The position numbers were made by a program, and so were the translations under genes. Below the pieces are notes generated by a model. It worked only from the letters and a program-made list of their open reading frames with translations. It searched no databases and was not told the origin of the DNA. 41,911 nucleotides of DNA from Candidatus Zixiibacteriota bacterium (lineage in GTDB: Bacteria; Zixibacteria; MSB-5A5; GN15; FEB-12): contig JAGGTI010000126.1 in NCBI GenBank assembly GCA_021163775.1, forward strand, positions 1 through 41,911, given 5' to 3'. Below, piece by piece: positions 5,973 to 32,892 of this stretch (position 1 is the stretch's first letter; each line of letters starts with the position of its first letter).

Positions 5973-6632
5973 ATGAAGAAACTGGCCAGGTTATCTCTGC
6001 AATCCGCAGTTTTGTTGTTTGTATGCTCAGGAGTATATGCCCAAGTGGGAATTATGAATCTGGTCCAGTGGGAAGTCGCCAATGGCGGGAATGATCACTG
6101 GTACGCAGTTATGGCTGAGGATGCGTATTGGCATGACGCTTACAGTATGTCTCGGACAGTGGAACAAGCCGGCCAGTTTGGATATCTGGCAACTATCACG
6201 AGTCAGGCTGAAAATGATTTCATATTCAATTCTGTAACTTCAGGTGTTACCAATCCGAGCATTCTGGATGAATACTACTTGGGAGGATACTGGGATGATG
6301 ACTGGTCCTGGATAACTGGCGAGGACTTCTCGTACACCAACTGGGCACCGGGTGAACCGAACAACTGGGCGTCGGATGGCGGGAATAACGAACCGGCTAT
6401 AGCGATGTGGGGGCATGGTACTACCCACAGCCTGAGAGTGCCGGGCATGTGGAACAACGAGGAGGCTGATGCTTTCACCTTTTGGTCCATCGTAGAGTGG
6501 GGTGGTTCTACGACCGATTTGCCCACAACCGCACCGTTTTCACCATCGCCCCTAACTGTTGTCCCTGAACCTTCAACGCTTCTTTTACTTGGTCTTGGAC
6601 TTGTTGGTGCGAGAATAATAAAACGGTTATAA
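5973..6632 (+). CDS. C-type-lectin-fold secreted protein with PEP-CTERM sorting signal
   Basis: Signal peptide; WITGEDFSYTNWAPGEPNNW lectin-like core; C-terminus VVPEPSTLLLLGLGLVGARIIKRL; ggagga RBS upstream. Confidence 0.9.
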   Translation: MKKLARLSLQSAVLLFVCSGVYAQVGIMNLVQWEVANGGNDHWYAVMAEDAYWHDAYSMSRTVEQAGQFGYLATITSQAENDFIFNSVTSGVTNPSILDEYYLGGYWDDDWSWITGEDFSYTNWAPGEPNNWASDGGNNEPAIAMWGHGTTHSLRVPGMWNNEEADAFTFWSIVEWGGSTTDLPTTAPFSPSPLTVVPEPSTLLLLGLGLVGARIIKRL

Positions 6633-6770: not shown

Positions 6771-6943
6771 GTCCATTATTGGTTGACAATGTGCTCGGGG
6801 CGAAGCATCTTTGAACGCTAGTCGCAGATACGTTAAAGCGATGAGGGTAAGATGATCTTGTGACCTGTTCTGCTGCTTGTAGCAAGTTAAATGTTGTGCT
6901 GTACGTGCCTGACAGTGCCCAGATCACAGCAGTAAGAAGAAAC

Positions 6944-7735
6944 ATGGAAAGCAAGAATATGAGCCATATTGATCTTCTCCGAGAACTTCTGACAGAAGTA
7001 GATGAACTTCCTTTGTTGGACAATAATGCATTGGACTTGCTCAGGCGGCGCACCAACCTGCTTATTGAGAAGATCTTCGGATCATCAAGCCAGTACAGAG
7101 CGCAACAAAACAATATTAGCTTCCGTTCTTGGGCCGTTCCGACCAGTAAGGGTGCGGCGAGAAGCATATGGATGAGGGGTGTGGGGCAACTCAGAAACCT
7201 AATAGGAACAATGATCGAGGATATCGAACTCTCGACATCTGGCCTCCAGGGGGTCAAGGAGCGCCCAAACACTGATGTGTCTGACAAAGTGTTCGTTGTG
7301 CACGGCCACGATCAGGAAATGAAGCAGTCCGCTGCTCGTGCACTGGAGCAACTTGGGCTGAAACCCATTATCCTGCACGAAAAGCCAGATAAAGGGCGAA
7401 CCATTATAGAGAAATTCTCCGATTACGCCGATGTTGGCTTCGCCGTGGTGCTCCTGAGTCCCGACGATCTTGGATATCAGAAAAGCGTGTCCTATGACAA
7501 GGCAAAATTCAGGGCACGCCAAAACGTTATACTTGAATTGGGGTTCTTTCTCGGCAAGTTGGGGCGAGATCGTGTTATTGCTCTGCATCGGGAGGACGAA
7601 TGTTTTGAGATGCCTTCAGATTATGACGGAGTGATTTATACGCCATTTGACGGAAACGGAGCTTGGAAACTAAAGCTTGTTCAAGAACTAAGAGCCGCGG
7701 GCTATGGTGTCGATGCCAATGCGCTGATTGACTGA
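6944..7735 (+). CDS. TIR-like nucleotide-binding protein (PF10137/CAP12-type C-terminal domain)
   Basis: DKVFVVHGHDQEMKQSAARALEQLGLKPIILHEKPDKGRTIIEKFSDYADVGFAVVLLSPDDLG...RARQNVILELGFFLGKLGRDRVIAL. Track start 6860 is GTG; ATG at 6944 (MESKNM) is preferred. Confidence 0.85.
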   Translation: MESKNMSHIDLLRELLTEVDELPLLDNNALDLLRRRTNLLIEKIFGSSSQYRAQQNNISFRSWAVPTSKGAARSIWMRGVGQLRNLIGTMIEDIELSTSGLQGVKERPNTDVSDKVFVVHGHDQEMKQSAARALEQLGLKPIILHEKPDKGRTIIEKFSDYADVGFAVVLLSPDDLGYQKSVSYDKAKFRARQNVILELGFFLGKLGRDRVIALHREDECFEMPSDYDGVIYTPFDGNGAWKLKLVQELRAAGYGVDANALID

Positions 7736-10819: not shown

Positions 10820-10890
10820 TATTTAGGTAGAGCCCGAAGACCGTAGTTACAGGTTGACTCGGTTCCAGGGCTGGGTTTTTGCCCAGTATG
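10820..10890 (+). promoter_or_regulatory. Structured 5' leader abutting the start codon of the C25 peptidase gene
   Basis: agccc(gaag)accg...cggt(tcca)gggct followed by ctggg-tttttg-cccag-t-ATG; no clear Shine-Dalgarno. Confidence 0.45.
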
Positions 10891-13800
10891 GAAATAAATC
10901 GGTATCAGACAATATTCGTTTTTTTCGTTGTGCTGGCGACCGCCTCGGTTGTCCTGGCCACGGATCCCAATCTAACTGTATTGGTATCAACCGACAGTGA
11001 GTTCAGGTTTCGCTATGATTTTGCGGCGGAGCTTGATGGGCTTCCCGTTACGGTCAATCACGATGATTTCTCAGCTCTACAGCGCACAATTCAAATCGCG
11101 ATTCCTGCCGGTAGCGAAGTTCGTCTGCTCTCTGTGACTGGAGAGCAAGAGCGGATTGATCGATCGGCTCGAGCGTTGGCGGCGGTGAGTGGATCAGAGT
11201 CACAGGTCGATATCTCCCGTCCGGTTGTTGTTCGTGGGCGTACAACTGTAGGTATTCGCGTTACGCCACTCCAGGACGGTCTGGTGTATGATAAGGTTGA
11301 GGTTGCGGTAAGTTTTGGTCGTACCCATTCTTCCGCCAAACTGACAGCACTTGATGATCCTGTTTTTGATCGTATTTGGTCGGCATCGCTGGCCAACTAC
11401 GACGTTGCGAAGCACTGGCCGGTAATTGATCGCAGACAGGGAAGTACGGTATCGCTCGGAACGGCTGGCTCTGATTCGCTGACTCATGCCGCCCAATGGT
11501 ATAAGCTTATCGTCTCTCGGACCGGACTGGTTCGGGTCACCGGAGCGCAACTTGAGTCGGTCGGTATCAATCTGGGTAGTCTGGCATCCGATTCAATCCG
11601 TGTTTTCAATGCTGGTGGTTTGCCTGATCCGGTTGATAACGCCGAAGATCGGCCGAACTTTCAGGAAATCTCGTTATTGATTATCGATAGTGGTGATGGT
11701 CAATTTGACCAAAATGACCAACTGTTGTTCTATGGCGAAGCGCCCAATCGCTGGGTATATGACGCTGGTGAGACGCCGGATTATATCAGTAATCGATACA
11801 CCGATGAAAATGTTTACTGGTTGGCGGTTTCGGGGTCGTTTTCTGGTTCACCGGTACGTATGGATCAGATTAACGGTGCTCTGGTTGGTCCGGCGGTTCC
11901 AGTGGTGGACACCTACCGCAATTGGGTCCATATTGAACAGGATCGGATGATTTCAATCGAGGCCGATGGTCATGTCTGGGATTACTACAATTGGTACTGG
12001 ACCGATGAAACCAGTCTGAGTATAGACGTAGCGACTCCGGGGGCGATTGAAACCGACTCGGCCTTTATCTATACCGCGGCCCGAACTAACCGAAGTGTCA
12101 ATCTGAGTGTCAATGGTACGTCGGCGACCCGCATCGACTGCCACAGTTCGGCCTGTCAGCACTACACTTTCAATCTGCAGGGTGGTATCGGTGAGACTAA
12201 CACGATTAACCTTCAATTGATACCTCTCTCATCAAGTGTGCCTCCGTTCTTGAACTATCTGGATATCAGCTACCGAAGCCAACTGCTTCCGGTTAGTGAT
12301 TACGTCGCATTTGATCTGGATAACAACGATGCTGAAGTCGAAGTTCAGGTAGTTGACAATTTCTCGTCTACGCCGACCGTGTTCGATATCTCCGATCCGC
12401 TTCATCCGACTGTAATCACCGGGTTTGATTGCTCGGGTGGGATCCTGAGTTTTCGGACAAATACGTTGATTGACCGCTCTAACCGTTACTTCGTAGCGAT
12501 CACTGGTCAGGCCGTGTCACCGATTCGGATTGAAGAAGTTGATTTCACTGACCTGCGCACTATTCCGGGACAGACTGACATGTTCATCGTTACAACCGAA
12601 GATCTTGCGCCTCTTCTCGATGAGTATGTTGCGTATCGGAGCGGTCAGGGTTGGTCGATTCGCACCGTCCTGGTGGACGATATCATGAACGATTTCTCGT
12701 ACGGCCTGTATGATCCTTCTGCGCTTCGCGATTTCTTCAAGTTCGCCTACGAGAATTATCCTTCACCTGCGCCATCATCGATTCTGCTGGTAGGTGACGC
12801 CAACTACGATTATCTCGATCACCTTAGCACTGGCGTAACCAACGTAGTGCCGTCGTATATAAGGGCGGGGAATAGGACTTACAGCGATGACAACTATGTC
12901 TATTTTGGCGATTTCGGCATACTTGATTCCGACTACGATCGGGCCCCGGATATGATGACTGCGCGCTGGCCGGTGCGCACAGTATCTGAGATTAACAATA
13001 TTATTAACAAGGTGATGGCCTACGAGTCGCCGTCAAATTTTGGCGCCTGGCGTACCAGGGTGACTCTGGTAGCCGATGACGAGCATACGACCGACCGCCA
13101 TGACGAGACTTTTCACACCACGCAGACAGAAACGCTCGAAAAAGTCTATATTCCGCGCCTGTTGAACCGGAATAAAATCTATCTGTGGGATTATCCTTTT
13201 GTTAATCGGGAGAAACCCTCGGTCAATGAGGCAATAATTAAGGCGTTCAACGATGGTTCATTGATTGTCAACTATGTTGGCCACGGCAACCCCGATGTCT
13301 GGTCCCATGAGCACGTCCTTCAGCGTGGCGCCGATCTGGTCCGCCTGAACAATTCCGATCGTTTGCCGCTGGTGTATGCGGCCTCGTGTGATATTGGTTT
13401 CTTTGATGACCCACAACGTGAAGGGATGGCTGAAGATTTACTGACAATGTCATCCGGTGGCGCAGTGGGGGTTATCTCGGCCACTCGTTTGGTCTATGCC
13501 GCTGACAATGCCCAGTTTAACCGAGCCGTTTATAATATCTTGTTTTCCAATCCGGATCTCACAATATGCGAGGCGATGTTTGCGGCCAAGGTTGAGCGTC
13601 AGTATCCTAACCCACTCGATACGCTTCCTCGGCCGGTCGACAATGACCGGGCTTACAATTTCCTCGGTGATCCCTGCCTTCGTTTGGGATTACCGACCCT
13701 TCGTCTGGAGTTTACCGAGCAACCCGACAGTCTGGTGGCGGCTGGTATCTCTACAATTAGCGGACGCGTGGTTGATGACAACGGCGTACCGGTATCAGCC

Positions 13801-14751
13801 AATGGTGAGTTGCAGGTGTCTGTTTACGATTCCGATCGGGAACGTAGCTACCGTCTGGCCGGTGACACGAACGCGATTGTCTACAATCTGCCTGGCCCGA
13901 CTATTTTTCGTGGCACCGCAAGCATCGTTGGTGGTCAGTTCAATTTACAGTTTGTAACGCCGCTGGATGTTGGTTACCGAGGTTCCAGCGCCCGCGTTTC
14001 CGCCTATGCTCAGTTTAGTGACCGCGATGGTATTGGCCTGATTGACAGTATTCTGGTCAGTGAGACTCAAAACCTGGTGGAAGACACCGAGGGGCCGACA
14101 ATTGTTTACAGCGTGTCTGGTCGATCTATTTTGTCCGATGGTGCTCGGCTTAGTCGGGATGAAAGCCTTGATATTACCCTCTCTGACCCGTCCGGTCTCA
14201 ATCTTGTCGGTGGCATTGGTCATGGTATTGTGTTGGTGATTGATGATCAGATTGAAAGTGCGATAAACCTGACCGACCTGTTTGAATACGACCGAGATGG
14301 CTATACCTCCGGAACTCTGGTTCTGTCGCTGGCGGGAATAGTTCCAGGGCCGCACCGGTTCAAGATCAAAGCCTGGGATAATGTCAATAATGCTTCGGTG
14401 GTTGAGTTTGAGGCCGAAATCATGGCTGATGACCGCCTGGCGGTGCTGGATCTGCTGAACTATCCGAATCCAATGAATAGGCAGACAACCTTCTATTTTG
14501 GGCTTTCACAACCGGTTTCCGAATTAAGGATGGCTATATATACATTGTCAGGTAAGAACATATGGAATACTTACCGATACCAATTGAGAGCGGGCGATTA
14601 TCCCAATGGCTCATCCGATTTGACCTGGGATGGCCGGGATGCGAATGGCAACTGGGTGGCCAATGGTGTCTATGTGTATCACCTGACCGCTCGTGGTGAG
14701 ATAACTGGTGAAAATGTTGAAGAATTTGGCAAAGTAATTGTTTTTAATTAA
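10888..14751 (+). CDS. Gingipain-like C25 family peptidase, PorU-like, with C-terminal FlgD/T9SS type A-like domain
   Basis: Catalytic His and Cys contexts NYVGHGNPDVWSHE and VYAASCDIGFFDDP; C-terminus LNYPNPMNRQTTFYFGLSQPVSELRMAIYTLSGKNI...NGVYVYHL. Confidence 0.88.
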   Translation: MEINRYQTIFVFFVVLATASVVLATDPNLTVLVSTDSEFRFRYDFAAELDGLPVTVNHDDFSALQRTIQIAIPAGSEVRLLSVTGEQERIDRSARALAAVSGSESQVDISRPVVVRGRTTVGIRVTPLQDGLVYDKVEVAVSFGRTHSSAKLTALDDPVFDRIWSASLANYDVAKHWPVIDRRQGSTVSLGTAGSDSLTHAAQWYKLIVSRTGLVRVTGAQLESVGINLGSLASDSIRVFNAGGLPDPVDNAEDRPNFQEISLLIIDSGDGQFDQNDQLLFYGEAPNRWVYDAGETPDYISNRYTDENVYWLAVSGSFSGSPVRMDQINGALVGPAVPVVDTYRNWVHIEQDRMISIEADGHVWDYYNWYWTDETSLSIDVATPGAIETDSAFIYTAARTNRSVNLSVNGTSATRIDCHSSACQHYTFNLQGGIGETNTINLQLIPLSSSVPPFLNYLDISYRSQLLPVSDYVAFDLDNNDAEVEVQVVDNFSSTPTVFDISDPLHPTVITGFDCSGGILSFRTNTLIDRSNRYFVAITGQAVSPIRIEEVDFTDLRTIPGQTDMFIVTTEDLAPLLDEYVAYRSGQGWSIRTVLVDDIMNDFSYGLYDPSALRDFFKFAYENYPSPAPSSILLVGDANYDYLDHLSTGVTNVVPSYIRAGNRTYSDDNYVYFGDFGILDSDYDRAPDMMTARWPVRTVSEINNIINKVMAYESPSNFGAWRTRVTLVADDEHTTDRHDETFHTTQTETLEKVYIPRLLNRNKIYLWDYPFVNREKPSVNEAIIKAFNDGSLIVNYVGHGNPDVWSHEHVLQRGADLVRLNNSDRLPLVYAASCDIGFFDDPQREGMAEDLLTMSSGGAVGVISATRLVYAADNAQFNRAVYNILFSNPDLTICEAMFAAKVERQYPNPLDTLPRPVDNDRAYNFLGDPCLRLGLPTLRLEFTEQPDSLVAAGISTISGRVVDDNGVPVSANGELQVSVYDSDRERSYRLAGDTNAIVYNLPGPTIFRGTASIVGGQFNLQFVTPLDVGYRGSSARVSAYAQFSDRDGIGLIDSILVSETQNLVEDTEGPTIVYSVSGRSILSDGARLSRDESLDITLSDPSGLNLVGGIGHGIVLVIDDQIESAINLTDLFEYDRDGYTSGTLVLSLAGIVPGPHRFKIKAWDNVNNASVVEFEAEIMADDRLAVLDLLNYPNPMNRQTTFYFGLSQPVSELRMAIYTLSGKNIWNTYRYQLRAGDYPNGSSDLTWDGRDANGNWVANGVYVYHLTARGEITGENVEEFGKVIVFN

Positions 14752-14773: not shown

Positions 14774-17569
14774 ATGACTTTTCGAAAAACACTTCTGATG
14801 ATGCTGGCCCTGATTTTCAGCCTGGGTATGGCGGGGGAGGCGCTGGCCGATATTTCCAACGCCGCTGTGCTGTTCCTGCGAATAGCGCCTGGCTCTCGTG
14901 CGGCTGGAATGGGTGAAGCTTATGTGGCTATCGCCGATGATGCTACTGCTACCCATTGGAACCCGGCCGGGTTGGGTAACTATCCGCTCGCTGACACCTG
15001 GATCGAGTCCGATATTCCGCAGGCCTATCGACCAATCCTCGGTTTTGCGCCAATAAGCACTGGTGGTAGTAATAACTATCTCGATTACGACATCTGGGCT
15101 ATTACTCCCGCCGGTCTGATGCGGTACGACAACAAACGCTGGCATGTCAGCGAGGTGTTCAGCACCCGAACTGATGAGACTGCTGAGCAAAAGATCGTAG
15201 ACTATTTCAACGTCACCGATGAAACTCGTTTGGCTTCGATGGTTGAGCGTGTGGCCAGTCTCAATAATAAGGGTAGTCGTGACGAACTAATTCAACTTCG
15301 CGATAGTATTCTGGATGCGGTGCCGGCTGACTATGACCAACTGGAAACACTTACTCTGGAGCTTGATTCTCTTCCCGAGTGCTATTTGTTGTGCCGGGTC
15401 AACTGGGACAGAATTCGGGAAGTGCGAGAACGTTTGGTTGACGGACTTAAAGACAGCACCTTGACCGATACCGAGTGCGACCGGATCAGTGTTGCGGTAG
15501 AGCGTTCACGCAACCGCTTTTTGCCCGAGGATTTCCTGATTCCTTACGGTGCGCTCTTTGATGTTGAGCCTACCGCTATTGCCTCGACCGGTGAAATTCT
15601 GCTGGTTGGTTCGGCCCAGGGCTTGACAAGGTACAATGGCAAGAACTGGCAGATGGTTAAGACCGATGAAGGTTTTGATCTGAGTAATGTTACGGCGCTT
15701 CATGTCGTAGAAAGCTCGGTTCTAATAGCAACCGATCAAGGGGTAAAACTCTTTGACGGGCTTACTGCCCGATCCTTGACTACCGACGCCGGTTCTCTTC
15801 CGTCGGGTACGATCGATGCCATTGGTGGTAATTCACTGACCGAACTGTACGCTATTGTCGACGGCGAACTTTACCGTTACAATGGCCGCTACTGGAGTCA
15901 AACCCGTAACCATACGGTGGCGATTGACGATTCGATTGACAAGCTTGCGGCCCAGTATTCCATTTACGATACCGAAGCTGATAAACTTCGTTTTGTCGAA
16001 CGCTATCGCGAGCCACATGACCAACTGGCTCAAACTGAAGCGGCGGTAACGAATGCCGAAATAGAGGCCGCGACTGAACATGTTGCACTGGGTTCCACTG
16101 GGGCTGACGCCACTGTTGAGACCGCAGATACAATCTTGATTGATACCACAACCGTGATTGATGAAACGGAATCAGAGACTTCTGTTGTTGAATCAGATTC
16201 GGATGTTGAGCTTCCTGCTGAGCCAGTGGTCATTCCGGGTATTGATGTACCTTTCAATCCGGGCGATGTGATCCAGGTGCCGCTGGTGGCCAGCCTTAAA
16301 GGTAAGGCCAGAGCTATCTATGTTGATCGGGATCAACGTCTCTGGCTCGGTACTGACCAGGGTATCTTTTCGTTCGATGGTCAGGCTTGGGATGCCCCCG
16401 GTTACGAGGATTACGTTGTAGCTGAAGGTGAAACCCTTGACACCCTCGTTGCCAAGCGATCAAACTTGTCGGAGGAAGAGGCCGTTGTTTACCGCGAACT
16501 CCTGGCTGACATCAATGATCTTGACGCTGACCAACCCGAAGTTGGTACCAGTGTCAAAGTATATGCTAACCCTGCCGCCCGACCGGTGAACAGCATTGAT
16601 GGTGGTGGGCAACAGGTATTCTTTGCCACCGAAAATGGTCTGATCGAATATGACGGACAAAGCTGGTCACGATCTGGCCTGCGTGGTCTGACAAGGGCCA
16701 ACATTGTCGGTGTCAATACTCTTGGCAATGAAAGTTGGATTGCCAGTGACGAGAAACTGGTCATCAAAGGTCGCGGTCATTCGGAACTTTCTTTGATGCA
16801 CGTCAAGTGGTTGCCGGAACTGGCGGACGATCTCTATTACGAATTTTTCTCAGTTGTATCCAACAAGGAAGGGTGGGGAACATTTGGTGGCAGTGTTACA
16901 TTTATTTCCTACGGTAAGTTTGCTCGGACCAATGAAGACAGTCCGGAAATTGTCGGTGAATTTGAATCTTTCGATATTGCCGGGGCGATTTCCTACGGTA
17001 CTTCGTTGAATAGCAAGCTCAAGGCTGGTCTATCATTCAAAGTCATCTATTCGCGTCTAACCGATCAAGGCGCCGGCGCCGAACAGGGTTCCGGTACGGC
17101 TACGGGGTTTGGTGTTGATCTTGGTTTGTTGTATCATATGAATTCGCGTCTGACTTTGGGAATGGCAATAACCAACCTGGGTCCCCAAATGTCGTACATT
17201 GATGCCGCTCAGTCCGATCCATTGCCACGAAATTTGGCAATTGGTTTTGCCTACACACTGCTCCAGTCAGATTACACCAAGTTGCTGGTCACGGCTGAGA
17301 TAAACAAACTCATGGTGGGTCTTGATGACCGATCGGGTGAGGAACTCCGGCAGAGTGTTATAAACGGCGGTGCTGAGTTTACATACGCCAATTTGTTTGC
17401 CGCCAGAGCAGGTTATATTTACGATTCGGAAGGCTCAATCAAAACTCCGACACTCGGTTTCGGCCTGTCGCCATTTTCATGGGGTGAGTTCGATTTTGCT
17501 TATATCCCGAGTCAGGATGATTTTTCCTTAGCTAATACCTTGCGCATCTCGGCTCGGTTTATTTTCTAA
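14774..17569 (+). CDS. PorV/PorQ-like outer-membrane beta-barrel protein with long beta-propeller and LysM-like insertions
   Basis: N-term FLRIAPGSRAAGMGEAYVAIADDATATHWNPAGLGNYP; five RYNGKNW-like propeller motifs; LysM-like YVVAEGETLDTLVAKRSNLS...PEVGTSVKVY; C-terminal barrel from about WLPELADDLYYEFFSVV. Confidence 0.82.
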   Translation: MTFRKTLLMMLALIFSLGMAGEALADISNAAVLFLRIAPGSRAAGMGEAYVAIADDATATHWNPAGLGNYPLADTWIESDIPQAYRPILGFAPISTGGSNNYLDYDIWAITPAGLMRYDNKRWHVSEVFSTRTDETAEQKIVDYFNVTDETRLASMVERVASLNNKGSRDELIQLRDSILDAVPADYDQLETLTLELDSLPECYLLCRVNWDRIREVRERLVDGLKDSTLTDTECDRISVAVERSRNRFLPEDFLIPYGALFDVEPTAIASTGEILLVGSAQGLTRYNGKNWQMVKTDEGFDLSNVTALHVVESSVLIATDQGVKLFDGLTARSLTTDAGSLPSGTIDAIGGNSLTELYAIVDGELYRYNGRYWSQTRNHTVAIDDSIDKLAAQYSIYDTEADKLRFVERYREPHDQLAQTEAAVTNAEIEAATEHVALGSTGADATVETADTILIDTTTVIDETESETSVVESDSDVELPAEPVVIPGIDVPFNPGDVIQVPLVASLKGKARAIYVDRDQRLWLGTDQGIFSFDGQAWDAPGYEDYVVAEGETLDTLVAKRSNLSEEEAVVYRELLADINDLDADQPEVGTSVKVYANPAARPVNSIDGGGQQVFFATENGLIEYDGQSWSRSGLRGLTRANIVGVNTLGNESWIASDEKLVIKGRGHSELSLMHVKWLPELADDLYYEFFSVVSNKEGWGTFGGSVTFISYGKFARTNEDSPEIVGEFESFDIAGAISYGTSLNSKLKAGLSFKVIYSRLTDQGAGAEQGSGTATGFGVDLGLLYHMNSRLTLGMAITNLGPQMSYIDAAQSDPLPRNLAIGFAYTLLQSDYTKLLVTAEINKLMVGLDDRSGEELRQSVINGGAEFTYANLFAARAGYIYDSEGSIKTPTLGFGLSPFSWGEFDFAYIPSQDDFSLANTLRISARFIF

Positions 17570-17579
17570 GAGGCTACTA

Positions 17580-20500
17580 ATGATATCTGTCATAGGAAGA
17601 CGACAACAACATAGATTTATTTCGCTTATCTGCCTGATGGCTGGCCTTATGGTCGGCCTGCCATCGGACGCCGATGCGGACAAACTTTGGAGGGGTGATC
17701 GCTTAGCGCCTGACACGCTCACATCACCCAATATTGTGCATCGCCATTGTCTCACACCGGAGGGCAATGACCGCCGTTTGGGTCGAACTTCGGACGGGCG
17801 GTGGATGTTGCCGAAGACGGCGCTTGCGGCCGATTTTGACACCACGCTCCACTGTTTAGTTTTGCGGTTCAATTTTCAGTACGAGACCACTGACGACCCG
17901 AATACCACCGGGCGTGGGAGCATGGATATGTCGCGGCCACTGGATACTCTCACTGATGAGGAGTATATCGCGAGAGTGGGCCATTTGACTGATCCGCCGC
18001 CTCATGATTCGCTATATTTCGATGCGCATCTGCAGGCACTTAGCCGGTACTGGGAAACGATTTCCGGTGGGAAGGTTCATCTTACCTGGGATATTTACCC
18101 GCCGGCACGGGATTCTGTTTACGAATTGCCGTACCCGATGAGCCACTATGGTCGGTGTGATTTCTCTGATGTTGTAACAGGTCTGGAGTACTATTTTGTT
18201 GACGGTCTTCGACTGGCCGATACCACCAGTCCCGAGATAGATTTTTCAAACTACGGGGCTATCTTTCTGTTTCACGCTGGTTCAGATCGCCAAAGTGATA
18301 TTGGCTTTCCTGTTACCTGTTCGGATCTGTTCAGCGGATACATCAAGTTTGGTGGCGAGGTGGCTGTGGACGACTCCACATACTTTATTTGTGACGGCTT
18401 GATGATGCCTGAGACAAATGTTCAGGATAACCGGGCGACCGCACTCAATGCCGTGATGGCACATGAATTCGGACATCAACTGGGTCTGGTTGATATGTAC
18501 AGCACCGAGAATTTCTTTTCCCAATTAGGTGATTTTGCCCTGATGGACAACAACGGTTTCGGCACTGGTATCGATTTTGGCTGGCCGGTTGGTCGAGTCT
18601 TTGGTGCTATTCCGTTATATCCTTGTGCTTGGTCGCGCGCTTTTCTTGGCATGGATGAAGTCCACGACTTTAGGCGTGATACTTCCGATGTGATGATAAC
18701 CGCGGCTGAATTACGTCAGGATCCGGGTATCAAGATTGCCCGCATTCCCATTACCGAGAACGAGTACTACCTGGCCGAGGTGCGACTGGAAGAAGTCGAT
18801 AACCACACCACCTATGTTTTAGCTGATCAGACCACCAGTGTTATTCAGGGACCGGTTGACTCAACGCGATCTTTCACCGGTGAATACGACTTCCTGATGC
18901 CTGGTTCCGGAATGTTAATTTATCATGTTGATGAAGAAGTCGCGGGTCTTGATTACGTTGGCAATGGCCGAAACAATTTTCTCAACAATACTCTCCAATG
19001 GTATCGAAATGAACGTAAGTTCGTCCGTTTGGTGGAGGCTGATGGCCTGGTCCATTTTGGTGGTGACTATTATGCCGGGTTCGGATCGCAGGGCGACTTT
19101 TTCCGAGATGACCTAAAAACTTTGCTTACGCCCAATAGTAATCCGAATACGTTCGACAACTCCGGCAACAACAGCCATATCTTTATCGACAATATCCATC
19201 GTCTTGAAGTCGATAGTATTGGGGGGCGTGATAACCACTATATGTTATTTGATCTTGAGATCGATCGCAAAGTAAATGGTTTTCCCGTTCGGGCTGGAGT
19301 TCCCTGGATGGGGCTGGCTCCGATAGCCGATGATCTCGATGGTGATGGTACGCCCGAATTAATTGCCGCTACAGGACAGGTCCTGTCGGTTGTGACGTCC
19401 ACCGGCGACAATTTCATTCGCAAAATAGACAGTTGCCCGTCCTGTCCGATTTATTACGATACTGCGGTGACTTCGATCAATCGTGGTATTGATGTCAATC
19501 CAGCCGCGACCTACCCCGTCCCGGTGTATGCCCTTGCGCCTTCCCCAATCACAGCGGGTCCGGTGACTGGTCGATATGATGCTACTGATACCGAGCGATT
19601 GGTAGCGGTTGGTCATCGGGACGAGTTATTTAATAACTGGTCGGTGGCGTTGTACGAACCGAGAGATTTGGACAACGACGCCGAGGCTGACCTGAGGGTG
19701 TCGCTCCTGATTAGTAGTCAACCGCTGGGACTCTCGTTCGGTGATTCGATACTTTACTGTGTGGCAACAGGTGGTGACTCGATCAATTCTCCTAAAGTGG
19801 TTTACCGGTGGAGTCTTCCAAATGCCACTCCACAAGTTGTTACATGGGAGGACAGTAGTCTCTACTATGGTCATAGTCGTATTGGCGATGATCTGGTAGT
19901 ACTGACGAGCAATACGATAACCGGTGAAAATGACTATTCTACGCTTCATATTGTGTCGGACACGGTTTACACCTATGATTTGGATAAGCTGTATATCTGG
20001 GGTCCGGTGACGGCGGATATCAATCTGGACGGTCAACCCGAAATAGTGCTTTTCACTCCTGAAGGCGATGGCCTGTTGCTGACTGTCGATACAACCGGTG
20101 CGGAAACAACATTCTCGATTTTGAATCAGCGGGCAATTGGCCGACTTATCACAACCGCTCCGGTGATTGGTGATGTTGATCTTGATGGTCGTCCGGACAT
20201 CATCGTGGGTGGCGTGAACGAGCTGCTTGCTTTTAATGCTGACCTTATTTTTAAGACCGATTTTCCGCGCGAGGTTGATGAGCGCTTCCTTGAAGTCGGC
20301 GTGATCGCCCCGCCAGTCGTGGCTGATATTGAGCGTGGTGGGGTGCCGGAGATTATTTTCCCCACAGCGGTCGGAAATTTTTATTCGTATAGTTCGGAAT
20401 TGAGTTATGGTTTTCCACTCTCGAGCGGTGAACAGCGTTGGCCGGGGTCGAGTTCTTCGGCGGTTGTGTTTGATGACTCAACCGGTTCCAAGCTGGCCTT

Positions 20501-20927
20501 CCTGGGAGGCGATGGCTGGATGTATGCATGGGAAGTCGAACCGGGTATGCAGGCAAGTTTCTGGCCGATGAACGGTGGTGGACCTGAAGGCAAATTTACT
20601 TTCGAAAGCGAACGCCTGCCGACCATTGCGGAACCGTCAACAGTTTTTGACGATAGTCGATTTTATAACTATCCTAATCCGGTGCGAGGTGATCAGACCT
20701 GCATCCGGTATTACTTAGGCGCTGACGCATCGTCAGTTGAACTTAAGATTTTCGATCTCTCAGGTGTAGAGATTGAGCATCTTAACGGGACAACGCGCGG
20801 TGGTGCCGACAACGAAGTGCTGTGGTATTGTTCAAATGTGACAACCGGGGTGTATCGCTGTGTGATAAGCGTTGATTTCGGTGGCGACACTGAGACCGCG
20901 TTCACTGATATCGCCATTGTGAGATGA
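17580..20927 (+). CDS. M6 family (immune-inhibitor-A-like) metalloprotease with FG-GAP-type repeats and T9SS-like C-terminal domain
   Basis: VMAHEFGHQLGLVDMYS; DLDGDGTPELI and DVDLDGRPDIIVGG repeats; YNYPNPVRGDQTCIRYYLG...GVYRCVISV at the C-terminus. Confidence 0.9.
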   Translation: MISVIGRRQQHRFISLICLMAGLMVGLPSDADADKLWRGDRLAPDTLTSPNIVHRHCLTPEGNDRRLGRTSDGRWMLPKTALAADFDTTLHCLVLRFNFQYETTDDPNTTGRGSMDMSRPLDTLTDEEYIARVGHLTDPPPHDSLYFDAHLQALSRYWETISGGKVHLTWDIYPPARDSVYELPYPMSHYGRCDFSDVVTGLEYYFVDGLRLADTTSPEIDFSNYGAIFLFHAGSDRQSDIGFPVTCSDLFSGYIKFGGEVAVDDSTYFICDGLMMPETNVQDNRATALNAVMAHEFGHQLGLVDMYSTENFFSQLGDFALMDNNGFGTGIDFGWPVGRVFGAIPLYPCAWSRAFLGMDEVHDFRRDTSDVMITAAELRQDPGIKIARIPITENEYYLAEVRLEEVDNHTTYVLADQTTSVIQGPVDSTRSFTGEYDFLMPGSGMLIYHVDEEVAGLDYVGNGRNNFLNNTLQWYRNERKFVRLVEADGLVHFGGDYYAGFGSQGDFFRDDLKTLLTPNSNPNTFDNSGNNSHIFIDNIHRLEVDSIGGRDNHYMLFDLEIDRKVNGFPVRAGVPWMGLAPIADDLDGDGTPELIAATGQVLSVVTSTGDNFIRKIDSCPSCPIYYDTAVTSINRGIDVNPAATYPVPVYALAPSPITAGPVTGRYDATDTERLVAVGHRDELFNNWSVALYEPRDLDNDAEADLRVSLLISSQPLGLSFGDSILYCVATGGDSINSPKVVYRWSLPNATPQVVTWEDSSLYYGHSRIGDDLVVLTSNTITGENDYSTLHIVSDTVYTYDLDKLYIWGPVTADINLDGQPEIVLFTPEGDGLLLTVDTTGAETTFSILNQRAIGRLITTAPVIGDVDLDGRPDIIVGGVNELLAFNADLIFKTDFPREVDERFLEVGVIAPPVVADIERGGVPEIIFPTAVGNFYSYSSELSYGFPLSSGEQRWPGSSSSAVVFDDSTGSKLAFLGGDGWMYAWEVEPGMQASFWPMNGGGPEGKFTFESERLPTIAEPSTVFDDSRFYNYPNPVRGDQTCIRYYLGADASSVELKIFDLSGVEIEHLNGTTRGGADNEVLWYCSNVTTGVYRCVISVDFGGDTETAFTDIAIVR

Positions 20928-21865
20928 AGGATTATTTGATGTCTGCAAGATTGATTTGGCTTATTTTGATTTTTTGTGTAATTTTTGGTTCTGTGTCCGT
21001 TATTGCTCAGACAGTAGAACTGCAATCCTCATGGCTGGAAGAAGACGCCCACAGGGTTAGATTCGGAGCTACAATGGCCTCGGGGGCTGTTGGCTTTAGT
21101 GGCTCAACTATGGCTCTGTTGAGCGTTGGCGAGGATAGTATATCCACTGTCGAAATTAAGCAGGTAGTGCGCAAATCACCCATTAAGGCATTCCTGCTTT
21201 CGGCGGTATTGCCGGGTGCGGGCCAATTTTACCTCGGCAACCGCCTTAAGGCGTTGGTCTTTCTTGGTGTCGAGGCGACCGCGTGGGGTTTTGAGGCTAA
21301 ACTCCGGGGGCAGGGTGACACTCGCACGGACGAATTTGAACAGTTCAACAGGGATCACTGGATTCAATCAAACTACGAAGATTACCTGGCTTGGAACTAT
21401 GGTGGAATTCGCGATGACGAATTAATACATGTTACAGAAATATCACACCATTTGCCGAAGACTCGCACTCAGCAATATTATGAGATGACCGGTAAGTACA
21501 ACCAGTTCTCCTGGGGTTGGGACGACGCCAATTACGACGGCAACTACCTCGAAAATTACGATGCCATTAACCCGCCCCCGACTATTACCAACGAAGTGTT
21601 TGCACCGGTTTCGGTCCGGCGGGTGGCTTACGAAGGTATGCGCCACGATGCTAACGAGAAATATGATCAGGCGCGAAAGATGGTCGCTGTGGCGATTGTG
21701 AATCATTTGGTGAGTGGTTTCGAAGCGTTATTCGCGGCCAATCGGTACAATAAGCAAGTCGCCAGCAATGATACCGAATTTGCAAGGCTGGATTTCCAAG
21801 CCTCGCTTAAGTCGTACTCAGCCAATAGGGATACCCCGTTTGTGCAACTTAGCTACAAGTTTTGA
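20924..21865 (+). CDS. DUF5683-like membrane-associated protein
   Basis: SPIKAFLLSAVLPGAGQFYLGNRLKALVFLGVEATAWG; ATGA overlap with the upstream gene. Confidence 0.75.
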   Translation: MKDYLMSARLIWLILIFCVIFGSVSVIAQTVELQSSWLEEDAHRVRFGATMASGAVGFSGSTMALLSVGEDSISTVEIKQVVRKSPIKAFLLSAVLPGAGQFYLGNRLKALVFLGVEATAWGFEAKLRGQGDTRTDEFEQFNRDHWIQSNYEDYLAWNYGGIRDDELIHVTEISHHLPKTRTQQYYEMTGKYNQFSWGWDDANYDGNYLENYDAINPPPTITNEVFAPVSVRRVAYEGMRHDANEKYDQARKMVAVAIVNHLVSGFEALFAANRYNKQVASNDTEFARLDFQASLKSYSANRDTPFVQLSYKF

Positions 21866-21877
21866 TGGAGGTCTGAC

Positions 21878-22678
21878 GTGACCGCAAAGTACATCATGAT
21901 GTTTTTTATCCTGCTGTTGCTGGCAACCAGCGCAAGTGGCGCGGTACGGTTAGGTGAGACTCCGGTCCAGAATGCGTTGCAGGCCGAGATCGCCTATGAC
22001 AATGTGGAACCGGTGCGGGTTCGCTTTCAGGCGTGGGGCGATGATGATTTCGGTGGCTCCGGCCAACAGTTGATATCTGGAAGTAAATCAGTTTTCAAAG
22101 CCGCGCTGTTTTCAACCCTGATTCCTGGTGGCGGACAGTATTACCTTGGTAAACGCAAAACCGCGCGGTATTTCTTTGCCGCTGAGGCGCTGACCTGGCT
22201 CGGCTATTTTTCATTCAATACCTATGGCAACTGGCGACAGGATGACTACATTGCTTATGCGGCTACCCACGCCAACGCTGACCTGGCAGGCAAGAACGAT
22301 GAATTTCTCACCTGGGTCGGTTTCTATAACAACATCCGTGAGTTCAACAGTTTTGGTCGCGCCTGGGATCCCGATCGTCCCTACCTGCCGGATACACCCG
22401 AAAATCACTGGGAGTGGAAAACTGACGATGAGCGCCAAACCTACCGCGATCTAAAGAACCGCAGTCTTGAAGCATTTCGTCGTTCCGACTTCATGATCGG
22501 GGTGGCAATTCTGGGTCGGGTAGTATCGGTAATCGATGCCGTACGCAGTGCTCGACGGATGAGTCGTCGTATCGATATGGATTTCTCAGATGTGGGTCAG
22601 AACCGCAGTGTTAAGTTGTCGGTGGATCCATTTTCAATGCGACGTCAGGTATGTCTTACTTTTTATCCCGGTTTTTGA
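21878..22678 (+). CDS. DUF5683-like protein, tandem paralog of the upstream gene
   Basis: SVFKAALFSTLIPGGGQYYLGKRKTARYFFAAEALTWLGYF; same size and layout as 20924-21865. Confidence 0.75.
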   Translation: MTAKYIMMFFILLLLATSASGAVRLGETPVQNALQAEIAYDNVEPVRVRFQAWGDDDFGGSGQQLISGSKSVFKAALFSTLIPGGGQYYLGKRKTARYFFAAEALTWLGYFSFNTYGNWRQDDYIAYAATHANADLAGKNDEFLTWVGFYNNIREFNSFGRAWDPDRPYLPDTPENHWEWKTDDERQTYRDLKNRSLEAFRRSDFMIGVAILGRVVSVIDAVRSARRMSRRIDMDFSDVGQNRSVKLSVDPFSMRRQVCLTFYPGF

Positions 22679-25123: not shown

Positions 25124-25268
25124 CACTTTTTAACGAAACCTAAACCCTCGAATGTAGTATAATCCCAAGTAATGACTTATGTGTTGTCCTAACTTAGGAC
25201 TTGGTAGACAGTTAACGTATGGTTACATAGACTTGATTGTGTTTTCAAGAATTACTAAATTACAACGA

Positions 25269-26150
25269 ATGGTTACTGTAACGATCCGACGATTCACTTT
25301 TTTGGCATATACCTTTCTGGGGCTGGTCATACTGCCACAGTTCGGGGCGGCCTCGATCTCGGTTTCTCAATCTGTTGATAGGAGCGAGATGGCCTTCGAG
25401 GATACTGTTAATTTCCAGATCAGTGTTATCTGGGATGGCCCCGCGTATGACTATCGTTTCGATAAACCGTTTAGGGTTCAGGCCGACCGGATGAAAGTGA
25501 CCCGGTTTTCCTCAACTGTGCGGTCCTCCGGATCAGGCCCTGATGAAAAAACAACCAAGTTCTTTGAATACCAGTTGACGCCACTTCTTTCCGGGATGGC
25601 AACGATCGAAGCACTCAACATCGAATATGTCACCTGGCCTGATTCGCTGACCGGCATCATGGTGACCGATCCGGTATCAATCAGTATACGCAAGCCGCTT
25701 CCTCCGAAATTGAGCGAAGAGAACGTTATGAATAGCGGTTGGTGGGCTGTTATAGCGGTCGGCTTGATAGGGCTGGGGTTTGGTTTGTATTCGATATTCA
25801 AGCGTAAAACGTCGGTTGAGAAAGTCCAATCCGCACGTGAGAAGTTCCTCGAAGAATTAGATGAGGTAAAGCGGGAGTCTGGTAGTGATCTCAAGAAATT
25901 TCAGACCGGTCTTTATGGTAGTCTGACCTCGTATTTTGAAACCAAATACGGCTTGAAGATCGACAACCAAACAGCCGACTTGATCGCGTCTGAATTGGAC
26001 CAGATAGAGCCGGATCAGACCGTAAACCGAACGTTGGCCGATTGGCTTATCCGTGCGGAAAAAGAGAAATATGCCCCGCTTACGACCTCCCCTGGTGAGG
26101 TGACTCGGTTGGCATCGGAGATAAAGCAGTTCTTTGAAAGAATGAAGTAA
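25269..26150 (+). CDS. BatD-like membrane protein
   Basis: Signal peptide, ASISVSQSVDRSEMAFEDTVNFQISV domain, single TM segment, cytoplasmic tail; directly precedes moxR. Confidence 0.65.
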   Translation: MVTVTIRRFTFLAYTFLGLVILPQFGAASISVSQSVDRSEMAFEDTVNFQISVIWDGPAYDYRFDKPFRVQADRMKVTRFSSTVRSSGSGPDEKTTKFFEYQLTPLLSGMATIEALNIEYVTWPDSLTGIMVTDPVSISIRKPLPPKLSEENVMNSGWWAVIAVGLIGLGFGLYSIFKRKTSVEKVQSAREKFLEELDEVKRESGSDLKKFQTGLYGSLTSYFETKYGLKIDNQTADLIASELDQIEPDQTVNRTLADWLIRAEKEKYAPLTTSPGEVTRLASEIKQFFERMK

Positions 26151-26173
26151 GTTATTCGTAGTATGGAGGATAG

Positions 26174-27163
26174 ATGAGTACCGATATTAAGGAGATTCAA
26201 GCATTGGTTGAGACGGAGGCATCGTTTGTCGATCGTCTGACCAGCCAGTTGGGGTCGGTTATTGTCGGCCAGAAGTATTTGATCGAACGGCTGTTGATGG
26301 GCATTCTGGCCAATGGCCATATTCTCATTGAGGGGGTTCCGGGGTTGGCCAAGACGCTCTCGGTCAAGACTCTTTCGGATGCTATTGAGGCAAAGTTTCA
26401 GCGTCTGCAATTCACCCCGGATCTGTTGCCGGCCGACTTGATTGGCACCATGATTTACAACCCGCAGAAAGCAGAATTTACGGTCAGGAAAGGTCCGATT
26501 TTTGCCAATATCATACTCGCCGATGAAATCAACCGCGCGCCTGCCAAAGTGCAGTCGGCGTTGCTTGAAGCGATGCAGGAGCGGCAGGTAACTATTGGTG
26601 ATACCACTTACCCGCTGGACGAGCCGTTCCTGGTTCTGGCAACTCAGAACCCAATTGAACAGGAAGGCACTTATCCACTGCCGGAAGCCCAGATCGACCG
26701 CTTTATGTTCAAGCTGAAGATCGGTTACCCCAGTCCTGCTGAGGAGCGGGAGATTATGGATCGCAACACCGGCACCGGTACGGTCGTGGTCGAAAAAGTG
26801 ATCAGTCCCGATGATATCATCCGGGCGCGATCGGTGTTGAGGCAGGTATATGTTGATGAGAAGGTGAAAGAGTATATCGTCAATGTGACTTTTGCGACCC
26901 GTGAACCGGAGAAATATGGTCTGGCTGAGATCAAAGATCTGATCGCATTCGGAGGTTCACCACGAGCTACGATTTATCTTAATCTTGCCGCCAAGGCTCA
27001 CGCTTTCATCAAGCGGCGTGGTTATGTGACGCCGGAGGATGTTAAGGCGGTTGGCCCCGATGTACTCCGTCACCGGATACTCTGCACTTACGAGGCTGAA
27101 GCCGAAGAAATCACGACGGATGACATTGTTGAAAAGATCTTCAACGCAGTTGAGGTTCCGTAG
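26174..27163 (+). CDS. MoxR-family AAA+ ATPase
   Basis: GVPGLAKTLSVKTL Walker A, LADEINRAPAKVQSALLEAMQERQVTIG, ATQNPIEQEGTYPLPEAQIDRF. Confidence 0.96.
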   Translation: MSTDIKEIQALVETEASFVDRLTSQLGSVIVGQKYLIERLLMGILANGHILIEGVPGLAKTLSVKTLSDAIEAKFQRLQFTPDLLPADLIGTMIYNPQKAEFTVRKGPIFANIILADEINRAPAKVQSALLEAMQERQVTIGDTTYPLDEPFLVLATQNPIEQEGTYPLPEAQIDRFMFKLKIGYPSPAEEREIMDRNTGTGTVVVEKVISPDDIIRARSVLRQVYVDEKVKEYIVNVTFATREPEKYGLAEIKDLIAFGGSPRATIYLNLAAKAHAFIKRRGYVTPEDVKAVGPDVLRHRILCTYEAEAEEITTDDIVEKIFNAVEVP

Positions 27164-27172
27164 GCGATACCC

Positions 27173-28048
27173 ATGATTCCGAAGGAAATCCTCAAAAAAG
27201 TCCGGCATATTGAGATTCGCACCAAACGGTTGGTCAATGATCTGTTCTCCGGTGAATACCACTCGACCTTCAAAGGCCAGGGTATGGAATTCGAGGAGGT
27301 GCGCGAATACCAGCCGGGGGATGATATCCGTCTGATCGATTGGAACGTGACTGCTCGAACCGGTTTCCCGCACGTTAAAAAATTCCGTGAGGAACGCGAA
27401 CTATCAATTGTTCTGTTGGTGGATGCTTCATCATCGGGTCGATTTGGTACCCGAGACCGGTTCAAGAGTGAAGTGGCGGCTGAGTTGGGTGCTTTGCTGG
27501 CGTTTTCGGCGATCAAGAACAATGATAAAGTTGGGTTGATAATTTATACCGACCGGATCGAGAAATTCGTACCGCCCAAAAAAGGACGGTCACACGTCCT
27601 GCGTCTCATTCGCGAGATTATCTTTTTTGAGCCGGAAGGGGTAGGCACAGATACCGGTCTGGCACTGGAGTATCTCAGCAAAGTTATCAAGCGGAAATCG
27701 GTTGTCTTTTTGATTTCAGATTTTCTGTGCGAGGATTTTGTCCGGCCTATGCAGGTGGCCAACAAGAAACATGACGTGATAGCGATCAAGATATCTGATC
27801 CACGCGAGGCCACTTTTGAGAATGTCGGTCTGATTGAACTGGAAGATACCGAAACCGGTGAAGTGGTTATGATCAACACCGGTTCCAGGGAATTCCGTCG
27901 GGAGTTTGCCGCTCGGGCCGATGAAGATCTTCAGAATCTCCAGAGGAATTTCAAACTGATCAACACCGATTTTATAAACATCCGAACTGACCAGTCGTAC
28001 ATTGCGCCACTGGCCAATTTCTTCAAGATGAGGGAGAAGCGTCACTGA
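27173..28048 (+). CDS. DUF58 domain protein
   Basis: GMEFEEVREYQPGDDIRLIDWNVTARTG; VLLVDASSSGRFG. Confidence 0.94.
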   Translation: MIPKEILKKVRHIEIRTKRLVNDLFSGEYHSTFKGQGMEFEEVREYQPGDDIRLIDWNVTARTGFPHVKKFREERELSIVLLVDASSSGRFGTRDRFKSEVAAELGALLAFSAIKNNDKVGLIIYTDRIEKFVPPKKGRSHVLRLIREIIFFEPEGVGTDTGLALEYLSKVIKRKSVVFLISDFLCEDFVRPMQVANKKHDVIAIKISDPREATFENVGLIELEDTETGEVVMINTGSREFRREFAARADEDLQNLQRNFKLINTDFINIRTDQSYIAPLANFFKMREKRH

Positions 28049-28974
28049 TGAACCAGCCTGCTACGAACCGTCTCTTTCTTTGGCGTTTTTGGTGCCTCTT
28101 GTGTTTGTCGGCCGTTACCTGTGTGGCTCTGTTAAGTGCCTGCGCCGGTGATCAGGCCGAGCGTATTGAACGTCACAAGCGTCTGGCGAGCGAACTTGAC
28201 AACAATGGTTTGCACCAGGCGGCTATTGAAGAATATGGGAAGGTTCTCGATTTCGATGGATTGACCAACCGCCAGCGGGGGAATATCAATTATCTGATTG
28301 GTCGCCTCTATTTTGAAGATCTGAAAGACTACACTAATTCGGCCGCTTACTATATTAAAGCGCGAGAATATGATCCGGATGGTTCGTTTGCTACCGAGGC
28401 CACCCGCAACCTGATAGCATCGCTCGAAAAGTTGGGTAATGTCCTTGATGCCCGGCGACAATTAGGATCAGCTACAGATATAGATCATCAGCCGACCGAT
28501 GGCGATGTTGTAGTGGCTCGGATCGGACAGCGAGATATCTGGCTGTCGGAAATTGAAGATCAGATCAGGCTCCTTCCTCAGGAGTATCAATCCCAGTTAC
28601 TTAATCCGCAAGCCAAGGTTAAGTATATCCACCAGTATGTTGGGGTGGAACTGATGTACAACGCCGCGGTGAGAGAAAACTATCTCGCCGATCCCGAAAT
28701 TCAGCGTCAGAAAGAACAAATGGTGAAGCGACTGGTTGTCGATCGGTTTGTGGCTGAGAAAGTTATTACTTCTGGTCAGGTTGACTCGGTTGATGTACAC
28801 AATTTCTATGGAGCCAATCGCGATAGCCTCTATCAGGGGGCACCGTTTGACTCGGTGCGGTCGCAGGTCTATCGGGACTATCAAACGCAGAAAGCGGAAA
28901 TCGCTTACAATGAGTATATTATGAACCTGGCTCAGGCCGAACAGGTTGAGTTCCTGGATCGTAACGTGAGGTAA
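28048..28974 (+). CDS. TPR lipoprotein with SurA-N/PpiC-chaperone-like C-terminal half
   Basis: Lipobox LLSACAGD; TPR-like section; VVARIGQRDIWLSEIEDQIRLLPQEYQ...VKYIHQYVGVELMYNAAVRENYLADPEIQRQKEQMVKRLVVDRF. Confidence 0.65.
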   Translation: MNQPATNRLFLWRFWCLLCLSAVTCVALLSACAGDQAERIERHKRLASELDNNGLHQAAIEEYGKVLDFDGLTNRQRGNINYLIGRLYFEDLKDYTNSAAYYIKAREYDPDGSFATEATRNLIASLEKLGNVLDARRQLGSATDIDHQPTDGDVVVARIGQRDIWLSEIEDQIRLLPQEYQSQLLNPQAKVKYIHQYVGVELMYNAAVRENYLADPEIQRQKEQMVKRLVVDRFVAEKVITSGQVDSVDVHNFYGANRDSLYQGAPFDSVRSQVYRDYQTQKAEIAYNEYIMNLAQAEQVEFLDRNVR

Positions 28975-28983
28975 ATTAGCAAG

Positions 28984-30036
28984 TTGATGTCGTATCGCTA
29001 TCACATAGTTGTGCTTTTGTTAATCTTGAGTGGACTGGTTACGCCAGTTGTTGGTCGGGAAGCTGACACTGTCGGGTCTATTTCGGGAATCGAGATTGAG
29101 ACCTCGGTGGACCGGGTTGAGTCGTATATTGGTGATCTCATTACTTACACCTTGAAAATCACTTATGATTCCACCTATGATCTGACTCCGCCGCCATTAG
29201 GTGCTAACTTGGGTGCGTTTGATGTCAAAGACTATCAACCTGATATCGAAACCGTACTGCCTGATGGTCGCTTAGAGAGCCGGACGATATTCACGCTGAG
29301 TACATACACTACCGGCGACTACATTATCCCGCCTTTGCCGGTCGTGTTTGTTCTTCCCGATAGCTCGCGCAAGGTGATGCTGGCCGAACCTATCCCGATC
29401 AAGATACTGTCGCTTCTGGACCTCCAGAAAAATGACTCGGTCGATATTAAACCGCTCAAACCACAGCTTACGGCGGATGAGATTTTTCCACCGGACTACA
29501 GTAAATACTATTTGTGGGGTAGCCTTGGACTGGTGCTGTGTATAGTAATTGGCGGTTTGATTTTCTGGTGGTGGCGGCGAAAACGGCAGGCGGCGGCAAT
29601 CATATCACCGGCGTGGGAAGTCGCGTTCAAAAGACTTGCCTTCCTCAAGGTCGAGCATCTCGACAAAGGTTTTGCCGAGCAGTTGAGAGCCAAGGATTAC
29701 TATGTTGAGTTGACCGAACTGAGCCGCGCTTATCTCGGGCGTATCTATGAGATTGACGTTTTGGAGATGACAACTGAACAGTTTATGGATCGATTTGCGG
29801 AGATCGAACTTCCAGATGATTTGTACTCGATCCTATCTGACTTCTACAAGCATGCCGATCAAGTCAAGTTTGCTAAAATGATGCCCGAGATGAAACGTAC
29901 TGAAGATGACTTTCTGATGGTTCACGCCATGATTGATTCGGTGCGGATTGATTACGAACGACGCCAGGAAATGACCCTCCATGAAACGGGCCGGACGGAT
30001 GAAGCGACACCGATAGCCGAGGAGCAGAAAGTATGA
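28984..30036 (+). CDS. BatD/DUF4381-like membrane protein
   Basis: Signal peptide, ectodomain, TM segment WGSLGLVLCIVIGGLIFWWWRRKRQ, cytoplasmic tail. Confidence 0.7.
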   Translation: MMSYRYHIVVLLLILSGLVTPVVGREADTVGSISGIEIETSVDRVESYIGDLITYTLKITYDSTYDLTPPPLGANLGAFDVKDYQPDIETVLPDGRLESRTIFTLSTYTTGDYIIPPLPVVFVLPDSSRKVMLAEPIPIKILSLLDLQKNDSVDIKPLKPQLTADEIFPPDYSKYYLWGSLGLVLCIVIGGLIFWWWRRKRQAAAIISPAWEVAFKRLAFLKVEHLDKGFAEQLRAKDYYVELTELSRAYLGRIYEIDVLEMTTEQFMDRFAEIELPDDLYSILSDFYKHADQVKFAKMMPEMKRTEDDFLMVHAMIDSVRIDYERRQEMTLHETGRTDEATPIAEEQKV

Positions 30037-31079: not shown

Positions 31080-31106
31080 GAGATAAGCGAGTTTAGATAA
31101 CAAGAT

Positions 31107-32126: not shown

Positions 32127-32892
32127 GTACACCATCTTGGGGATAATTTTATTGGCTATCGGTGCCTCTGGAGTGATGGCTGGTCCTGCCGAAGATGCGG
32201 TCCGAACTGGAAACGATGCCTTTTCTCAGGGTCAGTACGATGAAGCTCTGGCGCAGTACCAGATCAGCGAAACCGAATCTCCGGAGTCACCTGAACTGGA
32301 TTACAATATCGCTAATCTGATGCATGAGATGGGTAAGTACGAAGAAGCCCTTGATCGCTACAACGGTGCTCTTGACACTCAGGAAGCCGGGTTGCACGCT
32401 AATACCCATTACAATATGGGTAATACTTATTACCGTATGGGCGATTACGCGCAGGCAATCAGTTCGTACACGAAAGCACTCGAAGCCAACCCTGATGATA
32501 TGGATGCCAAGCTCAATCTGGAATTGGCTCGGAAGATGCTCAAAGACAATATGCAACCGGATGAGAATAAGGATCAGGATAAGAAGCGGGAACAGGAGCA
32601 GAAAGAACAACAACAGCAGAAACAGGACGAGAAAGAACAACAACAGCAGAAACAGGACGAGAAAGAACAACAGGAACAACAGGAAAAACAGGATCAACAG
32701 TCAGACCAGCAACAACAGTCGGAACAGCAAGATCAACAGGAAGACGGATCACAACAGTCTGATAAACCCAAGGAAATATCCAAAGAGGATGCTGAACGAA
32801 TTCTCAATGCTTTAAAAGATGATGAGCAGGATGTACAGAAGAAAATTAAACGCCAGGTTATGGGCGGGGATTATACTGGTAATGACTGGTAG
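32119..32892 (+). CDS. batC: BatC-like TPR protein with Gln/Lys/Glu-rich linker
   Basis: TPR repeats (AVRTGNDAFSQGQYDEALAQYQ) then KEQQQQKQDEKEQQQQKQDEKEQQ; preferred start MPKYTILG at 32119. Confidence 0.85.
   Translation: MPKYTILGIILLAIGASGVMAGPAEDAVRTGNDAFSQGQYDEALAQYQISETESPESPELDYNIANLMHEMGKYEEALDRYNGALDTQEAGLHANTHYNMGNTYYRMGDYAQAISSYTKALEANPDDMDAKLNLELARKMLKDNMQPDENKDQDKKREQEQKEQQQQKQDEKEQQQQKQDEKEQQEQQEKQDQQSDQQQQSEQQDQQEDGSQQSDKPKEISKEDAERILNALKDDEQDVQKKIKRQVMGGDYTGNDW
32611..32680. repeat. 30-bp tandem repeat (about 2.3 copies) within batC (approximate coordinates)
   Basis: gaaagaacaacaacagcagaaacaggacga repeated in tandem. Confidence 0.85.

Follow-up and report, generated by a model that had tools for sequence, protein, structure and literature searches.

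A PorV-family barrel protein of Zixibacteria with a predicted periplasmic propeller-LysM insert between hatch and barrel

This study describes a PorV-family protein of a Candidatus Zixiibacteriota bacterium (contig JAGGTI010000126.1 of assembly GCA_021163775.1; the window is the whole stretch of 41,911 nucleotides that was analysed) in which a propeller of seven blades, some of them separated by LysM modules (three in all), lies between the N-terminal hatch and the barrel. The open reading frame (14774-17569, + strand) begins with ATG and encodes 931 residues, starting with a signal peptide. About 600 residues separate the hatch from the barrel, where PorV itself has only a few. We consider it probable that the protein is a peptidoglycan-anchored PorV-family barrel, with its insert in the periplasm, and that this barrel serves as a base for PorU in a Sov/PorU-type (type IX) secretion-attachment pathway. 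The features of the protein, all on the + strand, are as follows.

14774..14851 (+): signal peptide, residues 1-26, end approximate (sequence; the model has a helix at 2-18 and then a linker of low confidence)
14852..14983 (+): PorV N-terminal hatch, residues 27-70 (FLRIAPGSRAAGMGEAYVAIADDATATHWNPAGL; alignment with PorV 6h3i_F; near-invariant in 46-51 homologs)
14996..15013 (+): strand 75-80 (TWIESD), which is proposed to complete blade 7 as its fourth strand and to close the ring (DSSP of the model; pairing inferred)
15035..15148 (+): propeller blade 1, residues 88-125 (DSSP; RYDNKRW motif)
15149..15547 (+): LysM-like module 1, residues 126-258, enlarged by about six helices (model strands 126-130 and 253-257; compact in a second phylum; hhalign)
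15557..15901 (+): propeller blades 2-4, residues 262-376 (DSSP; Reg_prop in homologs)
15902..16288 (+): LysM module 2, residues 377-505, interrupted by a disordered acidic segment (same-site Pfam LysM match in a homolog; hhalign; model)
16289..16399 (+): propeller blade 5, residues 506-542 (Reg_prop match 513-528; DSSP)
16400..16573 (+): LysM module 3, residues 543-600 (hhalign; model)
16574..16774 (+): propeller blades 6-7, residues 601-667 (DSSP)
16784..17566 (+): complete 14-stranded PorV barrel, residues 671-931 (DSSP, PorV_fam, Foldseek 8gl6_F / 6h3i_F)

With reference to family assignment, the NCBIfam model PorV_fam (NF033709) scored 224.9 bits over hatch and barrel against a cut-off of 90 and was matched by all 46 homologs, and Pfam PorV returned 2.9e-19. 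The PorV equivalog model (NF033710) gave 153.2 bits against a cut-off of 250, and for this reason the protein is named here as PorV-family and not as a PorV equivalog. Among solved sequences the nearest is that of F. johnsoniae PorV (6h3i_F), with residues 6-66, 671-855 and 855-931 aligned and the insert absent from it. The sequence-only reading, which had assigned both termini to a PorV/PorQ-type barrel, was right in this respect, but its description of a barrel in two parts has to be given up, as both AlphaFold models place the complete set of 14 strands after the insert (residues 671-930) and the N-terminus supplies the hatch only. These models, one of the 14774-17569 protein (pLDDT 83, pTM 0.77) and the other of L048, a homolog from a second phylum (pLDDT 85, pTM 0.80), agree on the layout, and each displays the single 14-stranded FadL-like barrel by which T9SS PorV is recognised. 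A Foldseek search with the first model ranked PorV structures at the top (8gl6_F, 3.4e-16, TM 0.61 by target; 6h3i_F, 3.8e-13), followed by Reg_prop sensor domains (BT4673), matched by fold. In comparison with PorV (LptO; F. johnsoniae 6h3i/8gl6), the T9SS shuttle, the Zixibacteria protein shares the hatch, the 14-stranded FadL-like barrel, the best sequence and fold match and a gene position beside PorU, but PorV lacks the propeller-LysM insert of ~600 residues. Several further PorV-family reading frames of ~300-350 residues are encoded in the same genome, and these are too short to carry the insert.

The strands of the model fit seven blades and Pfam Reg_prop was detected in 39 of the 46 homologs (best 2.8e-16), bearing out the propeller motifs that had been read from the sequence. 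The strand at residues 75-80, with its conserved W76, would complete blade 7 as its fourth strand and in this manner close the propeller ring.

The LysM identity of the segments between the blades could not be proved from the protein's own sequence, since Pfam LysM (PF01476) gave E=0.13 and 12.7 bits, below the threshold of 20.9 bits, and hence homologs and profile comparison were needed. Pfam LysM was detected in 24 of the 46 homologs, the best match being at site 2 of L068 (residues 440-491; 48.0 bits, 1.2e-12), and L067 scored 25.8 bits (1.1e-5) at the same site. An alignment of each site across homologs was run in hhalign against 20 genuine LysM domains that these genomes encode in other proteins, giving 97.3% for site 3 and 95.8% for site 2, against 0.2-4.2% for blade and barrel segments and a mean of ~1% or less for column-shuffled controls (single highest 14.9%). 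Site 1 of Zixibacteria reached 21% against genuine LysM, but 84.7% and 92.7% against sites 2 and 3, and its compact second-phylum form gave 78.8%. The beta-alpha-alpha-beta fold is displayed at all three sites of the L048 model and at sites 2 and 3 of the 14774-17569 model, in which site 1 holds six helices between its strands. An acidic Thr/Glu/Asp-rich segment (16076-16237, residues 435-488), of low confidence and highly variable among homologs, interrupts module 2. The earlier proposal of three LysM-like modules between blades is sustained. The modules share fold and profile similarity with the LysM domain PF01476 and differ from it in being nested between blades and, in the Zixibacteria copies, in harboring helical or disordered insertions. 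The genuine LysM references came from proteins of ~700-840 aa with four LysM modules (L114-L133; C1:57787-58518 in the genome studied), which are conserved in relatives. LysM modules are overwhelmingly glycan binders and, judging from this family function, those of the PorV insert probably bind peptidoglycan; as they are divergent, with module 1 heavily modified, such binding may be weak or lost.

The architecture is not confined to one assembly. A matching protein was found in all 117 sampled relatives and in 132 of 132 Zixibacteria genomes, nearly all with an uninterrupted frame over insert and barrel; a few incomplete genomes (e.g. G005, G048) contributed weaker paralogs or fragments only. 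Named Candidatus Zixiibacteriota relatives display 44-60% identity to the protein, and in the second phylum a matching protein occurs in 17 of 17 genomes at ~30% identity, there too nearly always with the full layout. An assembly chimera or annotation artefact, for which no evidence was found, is rejected as having practically no chance of being correct, because the same uninterrupted frame and its neighbours recur across two phyla in many assemblies that are independent of one another. Of the outcomes named as refuting the sequence-only reading (want of a single barrel, want of a LysM fold, a chimeric assembly), none was encountered.

The side of the membrane on which the insert lies was derived from the barrel. 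Outer-membrane barrels usually have longer connections outside and shorter ones inside. The strand list of the 14774-17569 model shows this pattern, with 73 residues in all in the connections that follow odd strands and 22 in those that follow even ones. The loop 193-199 of F. johnsoniae PorV is periplasmic (PMC10994853); it corresponds to IAYSDFN in 6h3i_F, precursor numbering assumed, and aligns to the turn between strands 6 and 7 (residues 789-792). Strand parity, loop lengths and this alignment together indicate that strand 1 of the barrel begins on the periplasmic side, and the modelled topology places the propeller-LysM insert, which enters at that end of strand 1, in the periplasm beneath the outer membrane. 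The barrel would exit the propeller at the end of blade 7 strand c, on one face, and as the first and last propeller strands are necessarily neighbours, the entry point falls at the same rim too. The LysM modules would exit where strand d of blades 1, 4 and 5 connects to strand a of the next blade, and since the barrel joins on the c-d side, the strand order suggests that they occupy the face opposite the barrel, toward the peptidoglycan, which would be within reach of modules beneath the outer membrane.

This topology decides against the surface crown of propeller and LysM modules that the sequence-only reading had put forward, whether it would sense envelope glycan, as proposed there, or foreign glycan. 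Reg_prop propellers and PorZ are often extracellular, and the PorZ model was weakly matched by 15 of the 46 homologs (best 9.1e-11); the insert, however, enters from the periplasmic side, and another locus encodes a separate PorZ-like protein that has a CTD-type end of its own. We regard the surface crown as very unlikely and reject it, and the sensing of surface glycan falls with it. PorZ, a member of the PorU:PorV:PorQ:PorZ attachment complex, does share a Reg_prop-type propeller with the insert, but it is a separate secreted surface protein with two such propellers plus a CTD. A covalent PorZ fusion standing in place of PorZ is likewise rejected, as the 14774-17569 protein reached 13.8 bits with the PorZ model (NF052228) against a cut-off of 260, and standalone PorZ-like proteins of ~740-830 aa (C64:2485-2952 in the genome studied; L053-L058) persist, with matches in 41 of 41 genomes, none above the PorZ cut-off.

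The genes around the protein connect it with type IX secretion, and those next to it in the window are the following.

10879..14751 (+): PorU sortase (peptidase C25, C-terminal FlgD_ig/T9SS-type domain), 22 bp upstream (NF033707; 6za2_A alignment)
17580..20927 (+): T9SS-dependent M6-like protein, conserved as the neighbour downstream (synteny; NF052323 2.6e-74, under the cut-off of that model)
20924..22678 (+): two DUF5683-like proteins, next in the cluster (Pfam just under cut-off; synteny)

The PorU gene scored 691 bits with NF033707 (cut-off 420), and its alignment to PorU 6za2_A includes the ASC and GHG motifs (C25 Cys/His), indicating an intact PorU. A PorU homolog ends 15-230 bp upstream of the insert-bearing PorV in 56 of 61 loci, with the M6-like gene downstream; of the other five, three run into contig ends, and in two (L047, L048) PorU is missing from this position and is encoded at another locus of the genome. 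In the second phylum the PorU-PorV-M6 order was found in seven loci, and L105 has no adjacent PorU. L047, L048 and L105 make up a second-phylum sub-clade that keeps the insert-bearing PorV and the M6-like gene without PorU beside them. SprA/Sov was above cut-off in 39 of 41 relatives (537.8 bits in the genome studied), and CTD-type proteins are encoded as well. The link to type IX secretion drawn from the sequence was right.

Other genes of the window were also observed on the + strand. A TIR protein of CAP12/Pycsar type at 6860-7735 (PF10137 6.6e-36; PADLOC PDC-S35 3.6e-77) is likely a stand-alone anti-phage defence effector. At 5973-6632 there is a C-type lectin-like protein with a PEP-CTERM tail (PF07589, PF00059), so that PEP-CTERM sorting apparently operates in this genome in addition to the PorU pathway. 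A BatABCD/MoxR-type (aerotolerance) cluster with two von Willebrand-like proteins, TPR proteins and BatD occupies 25179-35451.

In P. gingivalis, PorV is the surface anchor of PorU (PMC5562754), and it is because of this, together with the full PorU encoded upstream, that a wall-anchored PorU:PorV station is proposed here. Contact of the LysM modules with peptidoglycan would fix the PorV barrel in place, as the function of the LysM family suggests. On its outer side the barrel retains the loops of PorV, and the PorU encoded upstream is probably held there, as the strictly kept adjacency of the two genes and the known complex of PorU with PorV suggest. Such a station would take CTD-bearing cargo from Sov, and by analogy with PorV the barrel itself may bind CTD cargo and dock on Sov. 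The ordinary-length PorV paralogs of the same genome could serve as mobile shuttles. Wall anchoring sits awkwardly with PorV as the mobile shuttle it is known to be (PMC5562754), and the lack of a PorU adjacent to the insert-bearing PorV in the L047/L048/L105 clade counts against a PorU station.

A counterpart in two polypeptides has been described in P. gingivalis, where PorE (TPR, propeller, CRD and a peptidoglycan-binding OmpA_C) has been put forward as the link between the wall and PorP, itself a FadL-family barrel of 14 strands (PMC7192894, PMC9143113). Both arrangements combine a FadL-family barrel, a periplasmic propeller and a module that binds peptidoglycan or, in the Zixibacteria protein, probably does so, but PorP-PorE has a five-bladed propeller plus TPR/CRD, OmpA_C in place of LysM, and PorP instead of PorV as its barrel. 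We propose that the Zixibacteria protein is a one-chain analogue of the PorP-PorE bridge, built on PorV.

The main rival to the wall anchor is that the periplasmic propeller-LysM insert acts chiefly as a protein-protein adaptor or force handle, its LysM modules being structural or protein-binding, so that PorV is coupled to secretion components of the periplasm (replacing contacts with SkpA/SprE or the PorKN/GldJKN track) and loaded PorV can be pulled off Sov. The periplasmic face of F. johnsoniae PorV touches SkpA and the extraction of PorV needs energy (PMC10994853), and the divergence of the LysM sequences also fits. The GldL, GldM and GldN models each found 0 of 21 relatives, from which any delivery of force must differ here, but these profile searches had no positive control and so do not establish absence. 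The adaptor moreover names no partner protein, and the glycan-binding habit of LysM modules speaks against it; we hold it to be possible but rather unlikely. Less likely still is a combined scheme, in which Zixibacteria and at least one other phylum would operate a Sov/PorU pathway without a GldLMN motor, LysM-wall binding extracting loaded PorV from Sov, fixing the sortase station and replacing motor-driven shuttling. The weak PorZ-like similarity of the propeller and its linkage to PorU could also suggest that it collects a periplasmic glycolipid (an A-LPS equivalent) and hands it to PorU for transpeptidation, as surface PorZ does in P. gingivalis; as PorU works at the surface, the insert is periplasmic and PorZ-like proteins are present separately, we find this highly improbable. 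The anchored PorU:PorV station is the reading that we prefer.

LysM, Reg_prop and PorV are each already known, and what appears new, on limited evidence, is their nesting in one barrel protein. No such combination, with LysM between the blades, was found in the open-access papers searched. The sequence-only reading was right to regard the layout as unusual. A survey of 2016 recorded T9SS in Bacteroidetes only (PMC4793230), and no relevant paper tying Zixibacteria to T9SS was found in the open-access literature; the conserved PorU-PorV-M6 cluster, with Sov, across Zixibacteria widens the range of the system. In Bacteroidota, motor input is required for the release of PorV from SprA (PMC10994853) and moving tracks are used (PMC12635249). 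A periplasmic crown that probably binds the wall suggests another way to hold or move a carrier barrel, and if GldLMN is truly absent from these bacteria, the question of what energises carrier release would become directly testable by comparison.
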